Part shown: positions 3,148-48,010 of the stretch, one piece after another
How the letters are laid out: each line of letters opens with the position of its first letter
How positions within the stretch are numbered: position 1 is the stretch's first letter
Assembly (NCBI RefSeq): GCF_036924535.1
Contig: NZ_JAZHRT010000001.1
Coordinates: forward strand, 1,612,001-1,676,000
Source of the DNA: Bradyrhizobium sp. AZCC 2262
GTDB taxonomy: Bacteria > Pseudomonadota > Alphaproteobacteria > Rhizobiales > Xanthobacteraceae
DNA: 64,000 bases
Reading direction: 5' to 3'
Notes under the pieces: generated by a model
What the model was told of the DNA's origin: nothing
The model's input: only the letters and a program-made list of their open reading frames with translations
Databases searched by the model: none
Program-made: the position numbers and the translations under genes

Positions 3148-5172
3148 ATGGCGCCCAAGCCTCCATCCTCGGATGATCAGAATCCCGCGCCGGCGGACGA
3201 TCCTGAGCTGACGAAGAAGCTCGTGCCGGAGGCTGTCGCGCCGCTTTCCGGCGGCAAGGCCGCCGGCGCGCCCTCCGACGATGACAAGGACGACGAACAG
3301 GACGAGCTGGAGCTCGACGACGATGATGATGACGAGGACCTCGTCGTCTTCACCGCCAAGGAAGCCGCCGGCGCGATGGCGACGATGTACGGCTTCGTCC
3401 GGCCGTATCTCGCCAATTACAGGAAACTCCTGATCTTCGTCAGCTTCGGCGTCATGGTCGAGACGCTATTCAACGTCATCATGCCGCTGAGTCTGAAATT
3501 CCTGATCGATGACGCGCTCGGCGAAGAGGATTTTCAGGCGCTCTACAAGATCCTCGGCGTGCTCGCGGTCGCCGGTATCGTCACGTCGATCATTGCGGTC
3601 TGGTACGAGCGATGGGACGCGCGGCTGGCGGCGTCCATCATTGCCGATGTGCGGACGCGGCTGTTCGAGCATGTCCAGAACCTGCCGTCGTCCTATTTTG
3701 CCAAAACCAGGCGCGGCGAGATTCTCTCGCGCTTCTCGATCGACCTTGCGGCCTTCGAAGGTTCGGTCAAGACCTTCGCCAACAGCGCGGCGCTGCCGTT
3801 CCTGGAATTGATCGCCGGCATCATCCTGATGCTGTTTTTGAACTGGCAGCTTGCGGCGGTGGCGCTGCTGGTGTTCCCGATCACGCTGATCGGGCCGCGG
3901 ATCCTGACGCCGAAGGCGGTGCAGGCCAATTACGAGCAGAAGCTCAATGAATCGGCGTTGCTCGGCACGGTGCAGGAAAACGTGGCGGCGCAGGCCGTGG
4001 TCAAGGCATTCAGCCTGCAGCGCCGCACGCTGGGCTGGTTTACGATGCGCAACCAGGAAGTGCGCATCAAGACCGCGTCGGCTGTCTTCCTCTCCACGAT
4101 GGTGGAGCGCACCGTCACCATTTCAGTATTGCTGCTGCACCTCGTGGTGCTGGCAATCGGCGCCTATCTCGCCACCAAGGGCCAGATCACCATCGGCACC
4201 TTCGTCACCTTCGAGAGCGCGTTCTGGGAGGTGTCCTACAACATCGCCCATCTGATGCACTTCATTCCGGTGTCGATCCAGTCGGCGGCGGCGGTGCGGC
4301 ACATCCAGGAACTGCTGGATGAGCCGACGCGCGGCGCCGATCGCCCGGGCGCCCCCGATTTGCCGCGCATCACCAACGACATCACCTTCGACCGCGTCAC
4401 CTTCGCCTACGAAGGCAGCGAGACGCCGGTGCTCGACAATTTCAGCCTCAAGCTCGGCGTCGGCAAGCGTATCGCGATCGTCGGTCCCAGCGGCTCGGGC
4501 AAGAGCACGCTGCTCAACCTGATCCTGCGCCTTTACACGCCGGACGAGGGGCGGGTGGCGATCGACGGCGTCGATATCCGCCGCGTGACCCGCGAGTCGC
4601 TGCGTGGTGGCATGGCGATCGTGTTCCAGGAGAACATGCTGTTCAACATGTCGATCCGGGAGAACATCCGGCTCGGCAAGGAAGGCGCCAGCGACGAGGA
4701 GGTCGAGGAAGCGGCGCGCAAGGCCGAGATTCACGGCTACATCATGAGCCTGCCGCAGAAATACGACACGCCCGTCGGCGAGCGCGGCGACACGCTGTCG
4801 GGCGGCCAGCGCCAGCGCATCGCGATCGCGCGCGCGATCATCCGCAATCCCTCGCTGCTGCTGCTCGACGAAGCGACGTCGGCGCTCGACCAGACCACCG
4901 AAGCCGCGATCAATCGCACGCTTCTGAATGTGGCGGAGGGCCGCACCATGATCTGGTCGACCCACCGCCTGACGTCGGTGGTCGAAATGGACGAGATCAT
5001 CGTGATTTCAGGCGGGCAGGCGATCGAGCGCGGCTCGCATGCGCAGTTGCTCGCGGCCAACGGGGTCTATCGCAAGCTCTGGGACGACCAGGGCCATACG
5101 TCGCACAACGCCGCCACTCAGGCGGACGACGACAACGAAGACGATGACGACGATGAGGATGACGACGAGTAG
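3148..5172 (+). CDS. ABC exporter half-transporter (MsbA-like) with acidic N- and C-terminal tails
   Basis: The 674-residue protein is an export-type ABC half-transporter, a permease fused to an ATPase. After ~75 residues of hydrophilic sequence rich in Asp/Glu come about six membrane segments (~90-370). The ATPase has Walker A GPSGSGKST at 446-454, the Q-loop in VFQEN, the signature LSGGQ at 550-554, Walker B with Asp574 and catalytic Glu575, and the H-loop His606. The final ~20 residues are again almost all Asp/Glu. It probably works as a homodimer in the inner membrane exporting lipid or another amphiphile; substrate cannot be named. The acidic tail sequence recurs in damaged form at 6007-6066, beyond the next gene. 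Confidence 0.88.
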   Translation: MAPKPPSSDDQNPAPADDPELTKKLVPEAVAPLSGGKAAGAPSDDDKDDEQDELELDDDDDDEDLVVFTAKEAAGAMATMYGFVRPYLANYRKLLIFVSFGVMVETLFNVIMPLSLKFLIDDALGEEDFQALYKILGVLAVAGIVTSIIAVWYERWDARLAASIIADVRTRLFEHVQNLPSSYFAKTRRGEILSRFSIDLAAFEGSVKTFANSAALPFLELIAGIILMLFLNWQLAAVALLVFPITLIGPRILTPKAVQANYEQKLNESALLGTVQENVAAQAVVKAFSLQRRTLGWFTMRNQEVRIKTASAVFLSTMVERTVTISVLLLHLVVLAIGAYLATKGQITIGTFVTFESAFWEVSYNIAHLMHFIPVSIQSAAAVRHIQELLDEPTRGADRPGAPDLPRITNDITFDRVTFAYEGSETPVLDNFSLKLGVGKRIAIVGPSGSGKSTLLNLILRLYTPDEGRVAIDGVDIRRVTRESLRGGMAIVFQENMLFNMSIRENIRLGKEGASDEEVEEAARKAEIHGYIMSLPQKYDTPVGERGDTLSGGQRQRIAIARAIIRNPSLLLLDEATSALDQTTEAAINRTLLNVAEGRTMIWSTHRLTSVVEMDEIIVISGGQAIERGSHAQLLAANGVYRKLWDDQGHTSHNAATQADDDNEDDDDDEDDDE

Positions 5173-5213
5173 TCCGGACTGCCGCGACCGGGAAATGTCA
5201 GACGAGAATTGTA

Positions 5214-6005
5214 GTGACGGTTGTTGGGCGACTTGAAAGCGTTTGGCGTTACCCGGTAAAGAGCATGCCGGGAGAATCCCTGCCCGAGGCGTATGTCGGC
5301 TTTGGCGGCGTGCTCGGCGACCGGCTCTACGCTGTCCATCATGCGGGCGCGCCCAAGGCCTTTCCCTTCCTCACCGCACGAAGCAGAAAGGAAATGCTGC
5401 GATTTCGCCCGAGGTTTCGCCGTCCCGAGCTGACGCTTGTACCGGGCAACCTGACCGATGCAGAAACCCGTGGTCCCGGCCTGACACCGCTGTTTCCCTC
5501 CAGTGACGATCTGGCGCTTGAGATCGATGCGCCGAACGGAAAAACTCTGTCAGCGTCCGATCCGGCGCTGCTGGGTCTGATCGGAGGTGATCAGCTCAAC
5601 GCTTCCGACCTGACCATCATACGCTCGGACTGCGCCATAACGGACTGTCGCCCACTTTCGTTGCTTGCAACCCAGACGATTGACGGAATTGGCCGCGCGG
5701 TGGGCTTGACGCTCGACAAGCGTCGCTTTCGCGAAAACTTCTATGTCGATCTCAATTCCGGTGGAAGCTTTGCCGAAGACGCATTCGTCGGCCGGCGACT
5801 GCGGATCGGTCCGAAACTGACGGTCCACATTCTGGAACGCGATATCCGTTGTCGCATGATCAGCATTGATCCGGAGACGCTCGACGAGAATCCCGAGATT
5901 TTGCGGTATGTAGCAAAGAATCATGACGGGAGAGCGGGCGTCTACGCCGCTGTGCTGGTGGCGGGTCTGGTTCGCCCGGGTGACGATATCGTTCTTCAGG
6001 ATTAG
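5214..6005 (+). CDS. MOSC domain protein with N-terminal MOSC_N barrel
   Basis: 263 residues from a GTG start. The first ~110 residues (WRYPVKSMPGE, then GDRLYAV) match the beta-barrel MOSC N-terminal domain, and the rest is a MOSC domain of the molybdenum cofactor sulfurase/mARC/YcbX group. Cys near the C-terminus (DIRCRMISIDPET) fits the conserved cofactor-binding Cys. Such proteins carry Mo cofactor for reductive or sulfur-transfer reactions. Two 60-base stretches counted by eye give 52% and 57% GC against 67% in the ABC gene beside it, suggesting different origin. It lies between two copies of the ABC-transporter tail (5102-5157 and 6008-6063). No close ribosome-binding site is obvious, so the start is uncertain. 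Confidence 0.8.
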   Translation: MTVVGRLESVWRYPVKSMPGESLPEAYVGFGGVLGDRLYAVHHAGAPKAFPFLTARSRKEMLRFRPRFRRPELTLVPGNLTDAETRGPGLTPLFPSSDDLALEIDAPNGKTLSASDPALLGLIGGDQLNASDLTIIRSDCAITDCRPLSLLATQTIDGIGRAVGLTLDKRRFRENFYVDLNSGGSFAEDAFVGRRLRIGPKLTVHILERDIRCRMISIDPETLDENPEILRYVAKNHDGRAGVYAAVLVAGLVRPGDDIVLQD

Positions 6006-6006
6006 T

Positions 6007-6066
6007 CCGCACAACGCCGCCGGTCAGACCGACGACGACAATGAAGACGATGACGACGAGGAGTGA
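6007..6066 (+). pseudogene. Detached second copy of the ABC-exporter C-terminal tail
   Basis: Read in frame, these bases give PHNAAGQTDDDNEDDDDEE and a TGA stop. The intact exporter ends SHNAATQADDDNEDDDD and a few more acidic residues, so 14 of the first 17 residues agree. By eye, ~50 of 56 bases match between 5102-5157 and 6008-6063. No start or upstream part of an ABC gene accompanies it, so it is a remnant left when the MOSC gene entered. The convergent oxidoreductase gene reads through it in antisense. Confidence 0.75.
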
Positions 6067-7232
6067 GCCCGGCGGTTTGACCCCGCGCTGATCCCGTTTC
6101 GCATCCGCCGCAAGCAGCCTTCGCCGAACCACGCCAGGAAACGCGCCCAGCGCTGAGCCTGCCAGTAGGGCCCGTTCTCGATCGTGACCTTGCGGAAGCT
6201 GACGGCCTTTGCCATCGACCAGGCATCGCAGGCCTGCTTGACCGGATCGTCGTAAAAGGAGGCGATCTTGTCTTCGCCCATGCCCTCGGTCGCGAGCCAG
6301 GCGGGGATATGGACGTTGCAGAGCTGGGCTACGTCGGTGAATACCTTGTCGGTGCCGGTGCCGGTAACCGGGCAGGTGTGCGCAAAGGCGTCGCCGACCA
6401 GGACGAGGCCCGCTTGGCGATACCCGGTTGAGACATAGAGATCGGCGGGCCTGATCTTGACGTCGCCGGCAACGCCGTATTCGCCGGTGATGCGGCGCAG
6501 CCTGGGCAGCGCGGCGTTCATGGTCTCGACCGGCTTCTTCCGCATCTCGCGCAGCCAGGGGTCGTCGACCTCGCGGTAGACGAAAAGGTTGGCCCGCATC
6601 CGGCTTCTGATCGGGAAGAGCGTGACATAGGCGACGCGCTCGCTTGCCCGCTCCGAAAAATAGGTAAGCGCAGGAAATTCGAAGGCCGGGCGGCCGACCG
6701 GCACCAGGTCAAATCCGATCGAGATGGAATGGCTGGCGCTGAGGATCTGGCGCTCGATACCGAGATTGCGGCGCAGCCCGACACTCAGGCCATTGGCCAG
6801 CACCACCAGGCGCGCCGAAATCGTTTCACCGTTGGATAGCGTGAGCTTCTGCCGCTCCGCACTGGTCGAGACGTCGGTCACCTTGGCGTAGATGAGTTCG
6901 GCGGGGGCTGCGATTTCGGCGCGGACCGCGCCGATCAGTGCATCGTACATGATGCCGTATTGGCGGCTCGGCTTCTTGTCGAGCAGATAGCCGAATCGCG
7001 CGATCCAGTTTTCGCCGTCATGGGTGGCCGAGCGCAGCACCGAATCGGCGATTCCGGTCTGGTAGAAGCGGCCGAGCTGCTCGTCGCCGCTGATTTTTTC
7101 GACGCGGAAGTCGAATGGATAGGCCTGATGCGGATCGATCAGGACCGTCGGAATTCCCGCGCGTCCGAGCATGGCGGCTGCAGTAGAGCCGGCGAGGCCG
7201 CCGCCGATGATCGCAATGTCGGTGTATTTCAT
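6024..7232 (-). CDS. FAD-dependent oxidoreductase of the p-hydroxybenzoate-hydroxylase fold
   Basis: 402 residues. The N-terminus DIAIIGGGLAGSTAA (GGGLAG at 10-15) is the FAD-binding Rossmann motif. A second motif, GDAFAHTCPVTGTGTDK, is the GD element of group A flavoprotein monooxygenases and geranylgeranyl-reductase-like enzymes. Substrate is not identifiable. It converges on the MOSC and ABC genes. Its last ~13 residues are nearly all serine, because the coding strand here is the antisense of the acidic ABC-tail remnant at 6007-6066. The original C-terminus is therefore either an ancestral overlap with the ABC gene or a read-through extension. Confidence 0.8.
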   Translation of the reverse strand: MKYTDIAIIGGGLAGSTAAAMLGRAGIPTVLIDPHQAYPFDFRVEKISGDEQLGRFYQTGIADSVLRSATHDGENWIARFGYLLDKKPSRQYGIMYDALIGAVRAEIAAPAELIYAKVTDVSTSAERQKLTLSNGETISARLVVLANGLSVGLRRNLGIERQILSASHSISIGFDLVPVGRPAFEFPALTYFSERASERVAYVTLFPIRSRMRANLFVYREVDDPWLREMRKKPVETMNAALPRLRRITGEYGVAGDVKIRPADLYVSTGYRQAGLVLVGDAFAHTCPVTGTGTDKVFTDVAQLCNVHIPAWLATEGMGEDKIASFYDDPVKQACDAWSMAKAVSFRKVTIENGPYWQAQRWARFLAWFGEGCLRRMRNGISAGSNRRAHSSSSSSSLSSSV

Positions 7233-43598: not shown

Positions 43599-43861
43599 GC
43601 GTCGAGACCAGGAGCAGGCTTGCGGTCGCGCTGCACTATGACAAGACAGGCGCGCCGCGGGTCGTTGCCAAGGGCAAGGGCGTCATCGGCGCAAAGATCA
43701 TCGAACTCGCCCGGGAACATGACATCCCGATCGAGGAGAATGAGCTGCTGGCCGGGGCCTTGTCCCATGTCGAAATCGGCGACGAGATTCCGCCGGATCT
43801 CTACAAGGCGGTCGCCGAGGTGCTGGTCTTCGTGCTGCGGCTGTCGGGCCGGATCCGCTGA
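43595..43861 (+). CDS. FlhX: stand-alone FlhB cytoplasmic-domain homologue
   Basis: 88 residues from ATG 43595, overlapping the FliK-like stop. [42 protein letters not shown] followed by [23 protein letters not shown] matches the C-terminal domain of FlhB that remains after autocleavage. The NPTH cleavage site itself is absent, as expected of a protein that begins after it. Such FlhX proteins can substitute for the FlhB C-terminal fragment in other bacteria. Confidence 0.85.
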
Positions 43862-43934
43862 TAGCGTTTTCAAGCGAAAACCTGCCCGGACTTGATCCGG
43901 GGTGGAATCCGGTTCGCGTCAAGGAAACGCGTCA
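43862..43934. repeat. Dispersed repeat after flhX (inverse orientation)
   Basis: Begins AGCGTTTTCAAGCGAAAAC and ends with CGGTTCGCGTCAAGGAAACGCGTCA, which is the reverse complement type of the units at 19527 and 31237 (GACGCGTTTT...GAACCGG...AACGCT). A small CCCGGACTTGATCCGGG hairpin lies in the middle. Confidence 0.7.
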
Positions 43935-43967
43935 TACGAAAAGCCCCCTTGTCATAGTTTTTCCACG

Positions 43968-44834
43968 ATGCCATCAGCATCGTTTCGCCGTTCCTCAACC
44001 AGTTCGGACATAACCGTGATCAATCGCCGCCATGCGCTCGGTCTTCTCACAGCCGCGAGCATTCTTCCCAACCGTAGTTTCGCCAACGTCTCCTACCAGC
44101 GCAGCGAGTTTCGCGACGATCTGGCCAAGCGGTTTTTCGATCTCGGCACCACAGGCACCTTCGTCGGCTACAAGGTGGACGACTACCTGATCATCGCCAG
44201 CGACAAGGTGCGCTCGGGCGAGGGCAAGCTGCCGGCCTCGACCTTCAAGATTCCGAATTCGATCGTTGCGCTGGAGACCGGGGTGGTCGAGGACCCCGAC
44301 AAGGACGTCTTCAAGTGGGACGGCGTGACGCGCGCTATCGAGGCCTGGAACAAGGATCACACGCTGCGCTCGGCGATCGCGGTATCCGCCGTGCCGGTCT
44401 ATCAGGAAATCGCGCGCCGCATCGGGGCCGAGCGCATGCAGAAATATGTCGACCTGTTCGACTATGGCAACCACGACATCGGCGGCGGCATCGACCAGTT
44501 CTGGCTGACTGGCAATTTGCGCATCGATCCCGTCCAGCAGATCGATTTCGTCGACCGGCTGCGGCGCGGCGTGCTGCCGGTGTCCAAGCGCAGCCAGGAA
44601 CTGACGCGCGACATCCTGCCGGTGACCAAGGTCGGCGACGCCACCATCCGCGCCAAGAGCGGCCTTCTGGGCGCCGAGCAAGGCAAGCCGTCATTGGGCT
44701 GGATGGTCGGCTGGGTCGAGAAGGGCAGCCAGCAGACCGTGTTCGCCATGAACATGGACTGCAAGGAGCAGAGCCACATCGCCGCCCGCATGGCGGTGGT
44801 GCAGCAATGCCTCGCCGATATCGTGGCGATTTGA
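43968..44834 (+). CDS. Class D (OXA-like) beta-lactamase family protein
   Basis: 288 residues from ATG 43968. A second option is GTG 44016, which would start directly at the signal peptide (V)INRRHALGLLTAASILPNRSFA; a longer frame starts at 43902. The class D motifs are complete: Ser91-x-x-Lys (STFK), Ser140-Ala-Val, Tyr166-Gly-Asn and Lys230-Ser-Gly. A twin Arg before the hydrophobic stretch suggests export, possibly by Tat. It likely hydrolyses beta-lactams, or is a BlaR-like sensor domain relative without a membrane partner. Its last 22 codons recur at 45831-45899. Confidence 0.87.
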   Translation: MPSASFRRSSTSSDITVINRRHALGLLTAASILPNRSFANVSYQRSEFRDDLAKRFFDLGTTGTFVGYKVDDYLIIASDKVRSGEGKLPASTFKIPNSIVALETGVVEDPDKDVFKWDGVTRAIEAWNKDHTLRSAIAVSAVPVYQEIARRIGAERMQKYVDLFDYGNHDIGGGIDQFWLTGNLRIDPVQQIDFVDRLRRGVLPVSKRSQELTRDILPVTKVGDATIRAKSGLLGAEQGKPSLGWMVGWVEKGSQQTVFAMNMDCKEQSHIAARMAVVQQCLADIVAI

Positions 44835-44893
44835 CGGACTGCCTTCGTCGGCGAATACCCGGATCATGACGACATCGCAGGTGGCTGCAACCG

Positions 44894-44929
44894 TGGCTCG
44901 GTTCCGTTTCTGGCGGAACCATGGAGCCA
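44894..44929 (+). promoter_or_regulatory. Hairpin upstream of the methyltransferase gene
   Basis: TGGCTC-GGTTCCG pairs with CGGAACC-(ATG)-GAGCCA across a TTTCTGG loop; only the ATG on the 3' side is unpaired. It lies ~96 bases before the start codon at 45025. No poly-T follows. It could be an RNA leader element or a terminator for the beta-lactamase gene; I recognise no named motif. Confidence 0.45.
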
Positions 44930-45024
44930 TCGCGACGGGTGCAGATCCCGACGAAACACAGCTTTACGGCGAACTTCTCCCCGAGCTATAGAGACGGAGA
45001 CACACACCTAAGGGAATATATTCC

Positions 45025-45786
45025 ATGGATCGCTCGCCCCGTGTTGTCTGTGCTCTGTGTGACGCTGCCTCGTTTGTTCCCAAACTGACGGTCGACCGCG
45101 CCGGTGAGCGATTCTCGATCGTGGCGTGCGCGGATTGCGGCCACGTCTTTGTCGCCGATCCGCCAGCCGACACCGCGAACCACGTCGACATCAACAAGAT
45201 TGATTGGGGCTTCCGCCCGCGGCACCACCAGATCAGGCGGTTAATCCTGTCCCGGTTGAAGCCCGGACAGCGGGTGCTGGAGATCGGCTGTGGCCGCGGC
45301 GAGGTCGGCTACCTGCTCCGGAACGATCCGCTTACATATGTCGGCTACGAACCGGCCACCGGGCTCTCGGATTTCGGCATCCGCGCCGGTGTCTCTATCG
45401 TGCAGGAGGTCTACGAAGGCGGAGCCAAAGCCGATGCCGTCGTGATCGACAACGTCCTGGAGCACGTTGCGCAGCCCCGGCAGTTACTCGAAACGGCCGC
45501 GGCATCGCTCAACCCCGGCGGCATCGTGATCGCGATCACGCCAAATGTGCACGACATTCGCGCGCTGTCTTCGGCCTGGCGCGCGCGGCATCTCTGGGTG
45601 CCGCCCGATCACATCAACTTTTTCTCGGAAAAGGACATCGCGAGCCTGTTCCGGTTCGCGCATCTGCAGCCAAAGCGCTTCCGCTTCTCGCCGCTCCGGC
45701 TGTCGGACTATCGCTTCTTCCCGCGCGCCGCAGCCGAAACAATCGGTCTTTCGATCTTCGGCCACAACGTCTACGCCACGGGTTGA
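45025..45786 (+). CDS. SAM-dependent methyltransferase with N-terminal zinc-ribbon-like cysteines
   Basis: 253 residues. CxxC pairs (CALC near residue 9 and CADC near residue 37) resemble a small zinc ribbon, then a class I methyltransferase: motif I VLEIGCGRGEVG with Gly88-Cys-Gly-Arg-Gly, acidic residue in GYEP, and DAVVIDNVLEHVAQP as motif IV/post-I region, and GGIVIAITPNVHD. This architecture is common in sugar and cell-surface biosynthesis clusters (Methyltransf_23 group). It sits between the class D gene and the detached tail copy at 45831-45899, so it may be an insertion. Confidence 0.85.
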   Translation: MDRSPRVVCALCDAASFVPKLTVDRAGERFSIVACADCGHVFVADPPADTANHVDINKIDWGFRPRHHQIRRLILSRLKPGQRVLEIGCGRGEVGYLLRNDPLTYVGYEPATGLSDFGIRAGVSIVQEVYEGGAKADAVVIDNVLEHVAQPRQLLETAAASLNPGGIVIAITPNVHDIRALSSAWRARHLWVPPDHINFFSEKDIASLFRFAHLQPKRFRFSPLRLSDYRFFPRAAAETIGLSIFGHNVYATG

Positions 45787-45830
45787 AAAACATCCCGCCA
45801 TCCTCCGGCGCTGCGTCGGCGGTACGCTAC

Positions 45831-45899
45831 GAGCACAGCCAGATCGCCGCGCGCATGACGGTGAGGCAGCAATGCCTCGCCGACATCGTGGCTTATTAA
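45831..45899 (+). pseudogene. Detached copy of the class D beta-lactamase C-terminus
   Basis: In frame it reads EHSQIAARMTVRQQCLADIV-A-Y followed by TAA; the intact gene ends EQSHIAARMAVVQQCLADIV-A-I. 17 of 22 residues and 58 of 69 bases agree with 44766-44834. No earlier part of the gene is found; bases before 45829 do not match. It is a remnant tail on the far side of the methyltransferase gene. Confidence 0.78.
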
Positions 45900-46000
45900 C
45901 GAGACTTAACTTGACGGGCCAGCTTGCGCCCGCGCAGGTTGACGCTGGCATGAGTCCGGCCAGCACCGCTGTCGGGCAGGGACGGTCAACGGAGCTTTGC

Positions 46001-47401
46001 ATGCTGCATCGCCGCTCGGTTCTGCTCGCGGGCCCGGCGCTGCTGCTCGCGCGGGGAAGGGTGCAGGCCCAGTCATTGCAGGCCCAGTCAGTGCAAGCCC
46101 AGTCAACGCCCGAGCAGGACCTCGCCGCCATCCTCAGGGAGCGCGTGGATATTGCCCGCGACACCATGGGGATCGTCGCCGCGACGATCGACAGCGGCCG
46201 GCGCAGCGTCACCGTCTATGGGCAGTCCGGCTCCGATCGCCCGCTCGATGCCGACACCGTGTTCGAGATCGGTTCGATCACAAAAGTGCTCACCTCGCTG
46301 TTGTTGGCCGACATGGTGCTGCGGGGCGAGGTGGCGGCGGACGACCCTGCGGCCAAATTTCTGCCCGCCGGCGTCAAGATGCCGGATTTCGAGGGTGCGC
46401 CGATCACCTTGCTTGATCTTGCGACCTACACCTCAGGCCTGCCGCGGATGCCGTCCAATTTCGCGCCGAAGGATTGGGGCAATCCCTACATCGATTACAC
46501 GGCCGAGCGGCTCTACGACTACCTGTCGAACCACAAGCTCGGCTTCAAGCCGGGCAAGCACTTCGAATACTCCAACCTCGGCTTCGGCCTGCTTGGCCAT
46601 ATCCTCGAGCTACGCGCCGGCAAAAGCTATGAAGACCTCGTTGTCTCGCGCATCTGCGCGCCGCTCGGCATGGACGATACCCGCATCACGCTCACAAGTT
46701 CGATGCGACAGCGCCTGGCGCAAGGCCACAACGCTGGCCTCGCGCCGGTCCCGAATTGGGATTTCTTGGCGCTTGCGGGCGCCGGCGCGTTTCGTTCAAC
46801 GGCGAACGACCTGTTGAAGTTTCTTCAGATGTGTCTCGATCCCGCCGATCCGACGGTCGCTGCCGCGCTGAAGATGACGCTTTCCGAGCGCCGCCCGCGG
46901 ATGGATCAGCGCGACGTGGGCCTCGGCTGGTTCGTCTCCCAGCGGTTCGGCGACGAACTGATCTGGAAGAGCGGCGGCACCGGGGGTTATGCGACCTTCA
47001 TCGGCTACTCGACCAAGACCCGGCGAAACTGCGTCCTGCTCTCCAATGCGGCCGACTATGACGCCCATATCGCGCTTGGCACGCATCTGGTCAACGCGGC
47101 ATACCCGCCCCCAAAACTTCACCGCGAGGTGCCAGTCGATCCGGCGGTGCTCGCCACCTATGCCGGCCGCTACGAAATATCGCCGACCTTCATCCTGACG
47201 GTGCGCCCCGATGGCAAGCGCCTGTACATTCAGGCAACGGCGCAGCCCGAGTTCGAGGTCTATGCCGAGAGCGAGGCCGAATTTTTCTATCGCGTGGTCG
47301 ACGCGCAGGTCAGCTTCGTCCGGCCGCCTGAAGGCGGCGTGGCGCCGTCGCTGACGCTGCATCAGAACGGCAAGAACATGCTGGGCAAGCGGCTGCCGTA
47401 A
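46001..47401 (+). CDS. Secreted serine hydrolase of the beta-lactamase / penicillin-binding (class C-like) family
   Basis: 466 residues from ATG 46001; the much longer in-frame reading from 45545 overlaps the methyltransferase and is rejected. Signal peptide with twin Arg (MLHRRSVLLAGPALLLARG), then AQSLQAQSVQAQS, a triplicated short repeat. Beta-lactamase fold motifs: Ser92-x-x-Lys (SITK), Tyr190-Ser-Asn and Lys323-Ser-Gly-Gly. A C-terminal ~110-residue beta domain (TYAGRYEISPTFILTVRPDG) is the DUF3471-like lipocalin domain often attached to such hydrolases. Probably an esterase/peptidase-type member; true beta-lactamase activity is uncertain. Confidence 0.85.
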   Translation: MLHRRSVLLAGPALLLARGRVQAQSLQAQSVQAQSTPEQDLAAILRERVDIARDTMGIVAATIDSGRRSVTVYGQSGSDRPLDADTVFEIGSITKVLTSLLLADMVLRGEVAADDPAAKFLPAGVKMPDFEGAPITLLDLATYTSGLPRMPSNFAPKDWGNPYIDYTAERLYDYLSNHKLGFKPGKHFEYSNLGFGLLGHILELRAGKSYEDLVVSRICAPLGMDDTRITLTSSMRQRLAQGHNAGLAPVPNWDFLALAGAGAFRSTANDLLKFLQMCLDPADPTVAAALKMTLSERRPRMDQRDVGLGWFVSQRFGDELIWKSGGTGGYATFIGYSTKTRRNCVLLSNAADYDAHIALGTHLVNAAYPPPKLHREVPVDPAVLATYAGRYEISPTFILTVRPDGKRLYIQATAQPEFEVYAESEAEFFYRVVDAQVSFVRPPEGGVAPSLTLHQNGKNMLGKRLP

Positions 47402-47439
47402 GCTGGATCGCCGTATGCCGGATCGCCTCGCCGAGATCG

Positions 47440-47928
47440 CTAACGCCGGCTCAGCGCCAGCGAGACGGACGTAATGCTGCCGCCCTGCGGTTGGATGGAC
47501 ACCGTCTGCCGTCCGCCGCGTGTCGTCAGCGACAGGTGAGCCGAAAAGCTGTCGCCTCTTGCGGCAGCCTCGACGTGATCGCCGGCGGCGCGGCCGGAAA
47601 GGGTGCCGGAAGCGTTGCGGCTGGCCTCGCTCCATGAGCCGGAGATCTCGCCGCCGCGGTATTCGACCTCGCTTGCGAGATCGAAATTGAAGCTCGCGCT
47701 GGCACACCTCAGATTGAGCCGAAGCTGCTCGCCGCGCCCGGCGACATCATACGCCGCGCGGCAACGCAATTGCTCCTGCTGGCCGTCGGCGGTGCTGAGC
47801 ACGCCGCCACCCGACCATGTGCCCGCCATGGCATTGAAAGGCGAGGCAGGTGCGGCCAGCGCCGCGCTGCCGGCCAGCGATAGCGATGCGAACAGCAAGG
47901 CTGTCCGCGTGAGATTGGATCCAGACAT
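47440..47928 (-). CDS. Secreted protein of unknown function
   Basis: 162 residues from ATG 47928, with GGAG nine bases before; two in-frame ATGs up to 47955 are possible. Signal peptide LTRTALLFASLSLAGSAALA-A, then a Gly/Ser-rich beta-type sequence with FNAMAGTWSGGGVLSTADGQQEQLRCRAAYDV and two Cys that may form a disulfide (RCRAAY and LRCASAS). No family is recognised with certainty. Probably periplasmic. Confidence 0.7.
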   Translation of the reverse strand: MSGSNLTRTALLFASLSLAGSAALAAPASPFNAMAGTWSGGGVLSTADGQQEQLRCRAAYDVAGRGEQLRLNLRCASASFNFDLASEVEYRGGEISGSWSEASRNASGTLSGRAAGDHVEAAARGDSFSAHLSLTTRGGRQTVSIQPQGGSITSVSLALSRR

Positions 47929-48010
47929 CTTGATTGTCTCCATTCGGTTTGGCAATCAACGCCAAGACCGCAAATGGGTTCGTCGGTTCCAAGGTTCTAC
48001 CCCGTCGCTA

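Follow-up and report, generated by a model that had tools for sequence, protein, structure and literature searches.

The window, that is the whole stretch of 64,000 nucleotides analysed here from the genome of Bradyrhizobium sp. AZCC 2262 (G000), contains a class D beta-lactamase gene, bla (44028..44834, forward strand), whose product is recognised by NF012161 with 253.7 bits at a cut-off of 250. Since 123 of the 146 genomes of the genus possess it, bla ranks among the ordinary chromosomal genes here. The last part of bla, the anchor of the locus, is read below as the 3' end of a newcomer. It is followed by a segment (44835..45825) that finds no match in the relatives' bla loci examined and that carries gene M (45025..45786, forward), encoding a class I SAM-dependent methyltransferase (Methyltransf_23, PF13489). 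Behind M lies a second copy of the end of bla, t' (45826..45901, forward), and then gene S (46010..47401, forward; PF00144), which encodes a beta-lactamase-like serine hydrolase and was the native neighbour of bla before M. A stretch of 15 nt between S and gene X (47425..47439, forward; 93%, E 0.12) may be the remnant of an older displaced bla end; it is weak when taken alone; at the equivalent position, G028 has a tail and G019 a match of 15/15. Gene X (47440..47955, reverse), an open reading frame for which the profile search gave no Pfam or NCBIfam match, appears to be the oldest layer in the window. The gene order is thus bla-M-t'-S-(weak 15-nt remnant)-X, in which the newest gene adjoins the anchor. 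Two repeats of other kinds are found nearby: the stretch 43861-43940, upstream of bla, recurs behind bla in G119 and G024 and is a dispersed repeat, and a 15-nt unit occurs three times in tandem at 46062-46106, close to the start of gene S.

The first-pass annotation had reported that the segments 44766-44834 and 45831-45899 have 58 of 69 bases and 17 of the 22 encoded residues in common (the stops being TGA in bla and TAA in t'), and this repeat is real. A repeat search delimits it as an ungapped pair of 76 nt (44761-44836 and 45826-45901) with 83% identity. Scanning 1285 genes symmetrically gave this pair a score of 44.5, whereas same-strand controls whose second copy is non-coding reached 20.5 at most; one opposite-strand mid-gene control scored at least 24. 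When the last 150 nt of bla were compared by BLAST with the following 7 kb, a single strong match was obtained (62 nt, 89%, E 5e-19); it begins within the tail, and no sequence from further upstream in bla was matched in front of t' in these 7 kb. The complete second beta-lactamase, degraded in place, that the annotation had named as the alternative is therefore not seen.

To determine the native end, t' and 300 bases of its flank were aligned with the bla locus of each of 24 relatives. In two of them, G028 and G098, t' and its flank form one unbroken match to the end of the single bla gene, the stop codon and the spacer leading to S. The match is confined to the tail in the remaining relatives, whose next genes or spacers are different. 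Since G028 and G098 lack M and their sequence runs unbroken from the end of bla into S, the tail followed by S is the native arrangement. The alignments thus indicate that the downstream t' is the original 3' end of bla, and that the end now found on the intact gene arrived with M. The first-pass annotation had described the tail as detached from the intact gene; a displaced copy does lie one gene downstream, but it is the native one, and it is the intact gene that bears the newcomer's end. Modest evidence that the two ends are different alleles comes from ten sites that separate two groups of bla tails: t' agrees with the first group (G102, G053, G028, G098, G143 and G080) at six sites and with the other at two, and the intact end at four and six, respectively.

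The genes behind bla differ among the relatives in an informative manner. S directly follows bla in G098, G028, G019, G023 and G053, and X does so in G051, G109, G056, G038, G086, G124, G049 and G001. G028 has the order bla-S-t-X, where t is a bla tail, and this tail with its flank matches the bla-X junction of those eight genomes. The reverse order, bla-X-t-S, is found in G109 and G086, where tail and flank correspond to the bla-S junction seen in G023 and G053, and those of G086 to that of G019 as well. According to these junctions S and X have been stacked behind bla in both orders, each time keeping the displaced tail of the older layer, and M in the window is a further layer on top of the S/X stack. 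M itself occurs in seven of 142 genus genomes, including G000. A DNA query running from the bla end to t' gave seven matches in 265 genus genomes, only G000's own running through both the bla end and M; a donor version with bla-M was not found in this set. We also considered M as a cassette that carries its own tail, and rejected this reading: direct repeats around M at six loci of other genus genomes are at most 36 nt long with E 0.003 or worse, and a second set of six loci, of which four genomes overlap the first set, gave no flanking repeat reaching E 0.01.

A parallel arrangement at 5092-6066, which the first-pass annotation had pointed out, was confirmed. Here an ABC transporter gene (3148..5172, forward; PF00005 and PF00664) is the anchor, an inserted gene encodes a MOSC-domain protein (5214..6005, forward; PF03473), and the displaced 3' end of the ABC gene (6008..6066, forward; 89% over 56 nt to the intact end) starts 2 nt after the MOSC stop codon and is hardly decayed. 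In eight of 24 relatives (G053, G019, G023, G124, G113, G049, G001 and G084), all without the MOSC gene, this tail and its flank match the end of the ABC gene in one piece; in two more, G051 and G012, they match in two overlapping pieces. The displaced tail is as close to the native tails of other species as to the intact ABC gene of its own genome. Absent in most relatives, the MOSC gene is found at the equivalent place in G109, G038 and G032 and as a remnant in G024; the displaced tail is kept in G032 and G024 and gone in G109 and G038. The called end of an FAD-dependent oxidoreductase gene (6024-7232, reverse) runs antisense through the displaced tail, which results in a serine-rich C-terminus, and in several relatives this gene likewise ends inside the end of the ABC gene.

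A recurrent process, as the first-pass annotation had suggested from two cases, is supported by a scan of 1.656 Mb of the G000 chromosome, in which second copies of gene tails were sought downstream of genes called for this analysis, gene heads, gene middles, the opposite side and the opposite strand serving as controls. Six tail cases hold in 1.66 Mb: bla, the ABC gene, hemD (1009404-1010243), icd (isocitrate dehydrogenase, 1237059-1238273), a phosphatase-like gene of the phosphodiesterase family (1909490-1911328) and a CMD-family gene (2228162-2228737), the last being found in G000 alone of 18 genomes searched. The other five can be polarised with relatives, and a precise absence of the inserted gene, which the annotation had proposed to look for, was found. 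At hemD, tail and flank form a single match of 438 bases in two of 16 relatives, G102 and G028; four others (G086, G119, G109 and G113) have the flank at a place further downstream. The icd tail and flank, compared with 16 relatives, match G109 over 434 bases and G056 from 11 bases further in. For the phosphatase-like gene, eight relatives were compared, and G032 is matched in two neighbouring pieces. At all five polarised loci (bla, ABC, hemD, icd and phosphatase-like) the alignments thus identify the downstream tail as the native one.

The icd locus also shows the separate and the stacked states side by side. Within 1.5 kb behind icd, a segment P1 is present in four relatives (G028, G119, G086 and G113), a segment P2 in six (G109, G056, G102, G037, G049 and G098), and both of them with an icd tail in between in G000, G019, G023, G053, G124, G001 and G024; the tail of G124 is long, those of G001 and G024 are almost gone. 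At the phosphatase-like locus the insert follows the gene in G024, G113 and G001, the empty version is that of G032, and both are combined in G000; no t' was detected behind the insert in the remaining 61 (G024), about 120 (G113) and 177 (G001) bases. The insert itself (G000 1907991-1909489) has a 473-codon frame with a membrane-protein-like start, and by eye the frame appears to be lost halfway. The G000 genome also contains longer tail copies and tandem paralogs. Further longer or doubtful tail candidates (1302159, 2137157, 2410473 and 1527424) come from a first scan of 1096 genes. One gene is present three times in tandem at G000 1125082-1129657, two of the copies being nearly identical where compared.

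The additions had been placed at the 3' ends of genes by the first-pass annotation; the additions recur, but the preference for this end is only suggestive. A stricter version of the scan covered the 1285 genes, skipping those near the ends of the stretch scanned, and counted the strongest match per comparison with a non-coding second copy and a score of at least 17. On the same strand it gave six matches of gene tails downstream, two of heads upstream and two of middles downstream, and none of tails upstream, heads downstream or middles upstream. On the opposite strand there was one match of a head upstream and one of a middle upstream (the control with a score of at least 24), the others being zero. 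Gene 2378096 was dropped from the six tail matches, since the match is a palindromic, terminator-like stretch. The ABC case was added to the tail count, its displaced tail being overlapped by an antisense gene call. These adjustments, made on the tail matches only, result in six versus two, which we do not regard as significant. The mirror image, in which a displaced start would lie in front of its gene, has two weak candidates in G000, at 2018865-2019989 (reverse) and 2431732-2432082 (forward), with matches of 33 nt at 85% and 65 nt at 72%.

The structure of the product requires homology in the anchor on one side and a non-homologous join in the recipient's tail on the other, and we consider it probable that genes stack behind a shared chromosomal gene by just this combination of a homologous exchange and an end-to-end join. 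DNA of a related strain would bring its own version of the shared gene together with a different next gene. Homologous recombination within the shared gene would take care of the anchor side, and the other, non-homologous end of the donor would be joined inside the last part of the recipient gene. The product would then consist of the recipient's 5' part, the donor's 3' end, the donor's next gene, the recipient's original 3' end and the recipient's next gene, so that each case is best understood as two alternative forms of a single locus piled one upon the other. Relatives of the donor type and of the recipient type both have an intact, homologous anchor gene, the matches to relatives end at the join, and the recipient's tail and next gene are retained there with no deletion of recipient DNA. 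In the one case in which both the donor and the recipient type were available, they have no more than about 3 nt in common at the join, as judged by eye. Four genes with a Ku domain (6853495, 2352591, 4556511 and 5888496) are present in G000, from which we conclude that end-joining is available in this genome. Against this reading, sliding identity along the anchor genes revealed a mosaic pattern and no single sharp switch, a change of the best relative being seen only within the last 280 nt of bla and the last 560 nt of the phosphatase-like gene. It also counts against it that no bla-M donor was found and that in most relatives the match covers the tail and leaves out the flank, as their own next genes differ. 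A linear fragment, as in homology-facilitated illegitimate recombination (HFIR), or a circle with a single crossover would both do as donor. The circle needs a crossover inside the duplicated tail, which with about 60 bases at 11-19% divergence is hard for young events such as ABC, and we thus lean towards a linear donor. A gene transfer agent was tried as a vector and discarded, as the marker GTA_TIM (PF13547) was not found in the G000 genome.

Stacking by one-sided recombination has to be weighed against a duplication in which a full second copy of the anchor together with the neighbour was added in tandem, later deletions leaving only the tail. Tails do erode with time, as the icd tail of G124 shows in comparison to those of G000, G001 and G024, and the longer tail copies and tandem paralogs of G000 are what such a history might leave behind. 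We nevertheless regard it as unlikely, since the 123 bla-bearing genomes contain no second full-length close copy of bla, additional matches being due to a 38% paralog in G006 and to fragments of disrupted genes in G004 and G069, and since the ABC tail, 2 nt past the MOSC stop, has hardly decayed at all. The shortness of the surviving tails, which counts against stacking, is explained in part by the erosion seen at icd.

The direct repeats that flank each insert would also be produced if the insert had entered the end of the gene at a staggered cut, copying 30-80 bases that diverged afterwards. This is quite improbable, since the displaced ABC tail is no closer to its own intact gene than to the native tails of other species; likewise, the two bla ends lean to different lineages at the ten sites, and the stacking of S and X in both orders is left unexplained. 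Some integrating islands restore the 3' end of their target gene, and the geometry seen here is reminiscent of them, so that one may think of a site-specific integration at gene 3' ends with the recombinase acting in trans and the repeats as attachment sites. To this we give hardly any credit: the sole gene of each window insert codes for a methyltransferase or a MOSC protein, the anchors are unrelated, the repeats are 11-19% diverged, and at the seven junctions no shared motif was found, no k-mer being commoner than in random windows. An island bearing its own integrase was rejected as well, given that neither insert of the window encodes a recognised recombinase, the other inserts having been read only as open reading frames, and that the junctions share no motif.

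How core genes acquire accessory neighbours with neither an integrase nor a transposon in view is an old question. In G000, a soil bacterium, new genes have repeatedly been placed immediately after ordinary genes of the chromosome, most likely through a recombination that uses the shared gene as its anchor, and every addition shifted the former end of the gene downstream, where it persists as a scar recording the order of arrival. Such an end is a footprint with a polarity, as it shows the new neighbour, the old neighbour and the gene between them that served as the entry point, and such tails can be searched for in any genome to obtain rates, donors and the order of arrival. We may speculate, though we would rather doubt it at present, that these bacteria frequently gain single genes beside core genes through gene-end stacking, as a general route that needs no mobile element and is favoured at 3' ends and by the possession of several Ku genes, and that the tails form a genome-wide stratigraphy of arrival.

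It is useful to compare these loci with known systems. The minimal mobile elements of Neisseria are alternative single genes between conserved neighbours, and are similar to the present cases in this respect. They are exchanged by homology on both sides and are not known to leave a displaced tail, and in both points they differ from what is described here.

Closer parallels are found among one-sided events. HFIR, in which one end is integrated by homology and the other without, was studied in an E. coli plasmid assay (Amarir-Bouhram 2011, PMC3240628), and shares with our loci the homologous anchor on one side and probably the join without homology on the other. Most clones of that study, 56 of 60 by PCR, carried the homologous end partly duplicated, which was attributed to a single crossover of circular molecules; a deletion of recipient DNA at the join is the outcome predicted there for HFIR. 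The recipient's tail and next gene are kept at our loci, in contrast to this prediction, and as the E. coli duplications were put down to circles, we do not claim strict membership. The assay is moreover a laboratory one, while the events reported here are natural, repeated, layered and chromosomal, and known from their products alone. In the effector-immunity arrays of the T6SS of V. cholerae (Kirchberger 2017, PMC5361080), a module that is anchored in a conserved stretch upstream displaces the old effector end downstream, the old next gene is kept, the arrays record successive events, and the authors suggest an HFIR-like mechanism. The layered displacement of the old 3' end and the old next gene is the same at bla. 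However, the T6SS anchor is an effector locus selected for new tips, while our anchors (a class D beta-lactamase, an ABC transporter, HemD, isocitrate dehydrogenase and a phosphodiesterase-family protein) are ordinary, neither toxins nor effectors, and their protein ends are hardly changed. In rhs genes, too, new 3' ends push the old ones into downstream arrays, and the authors propose a circle recombining with the rhs core (Jackson 2009, PMC2935791); these are variable toxin tips, whereas no variable tip exists here and both bla ends are homologous. No report of displaced gene tails of such kind in Bradyrhizobium, and no description of a repeated, layered and reciprocal action at ordinary genes, was found in the openly available literature. 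The process at bla and the other anchors belongs close to these systems, beside one-sided recombination on the one hand and displacement arrays on the other.
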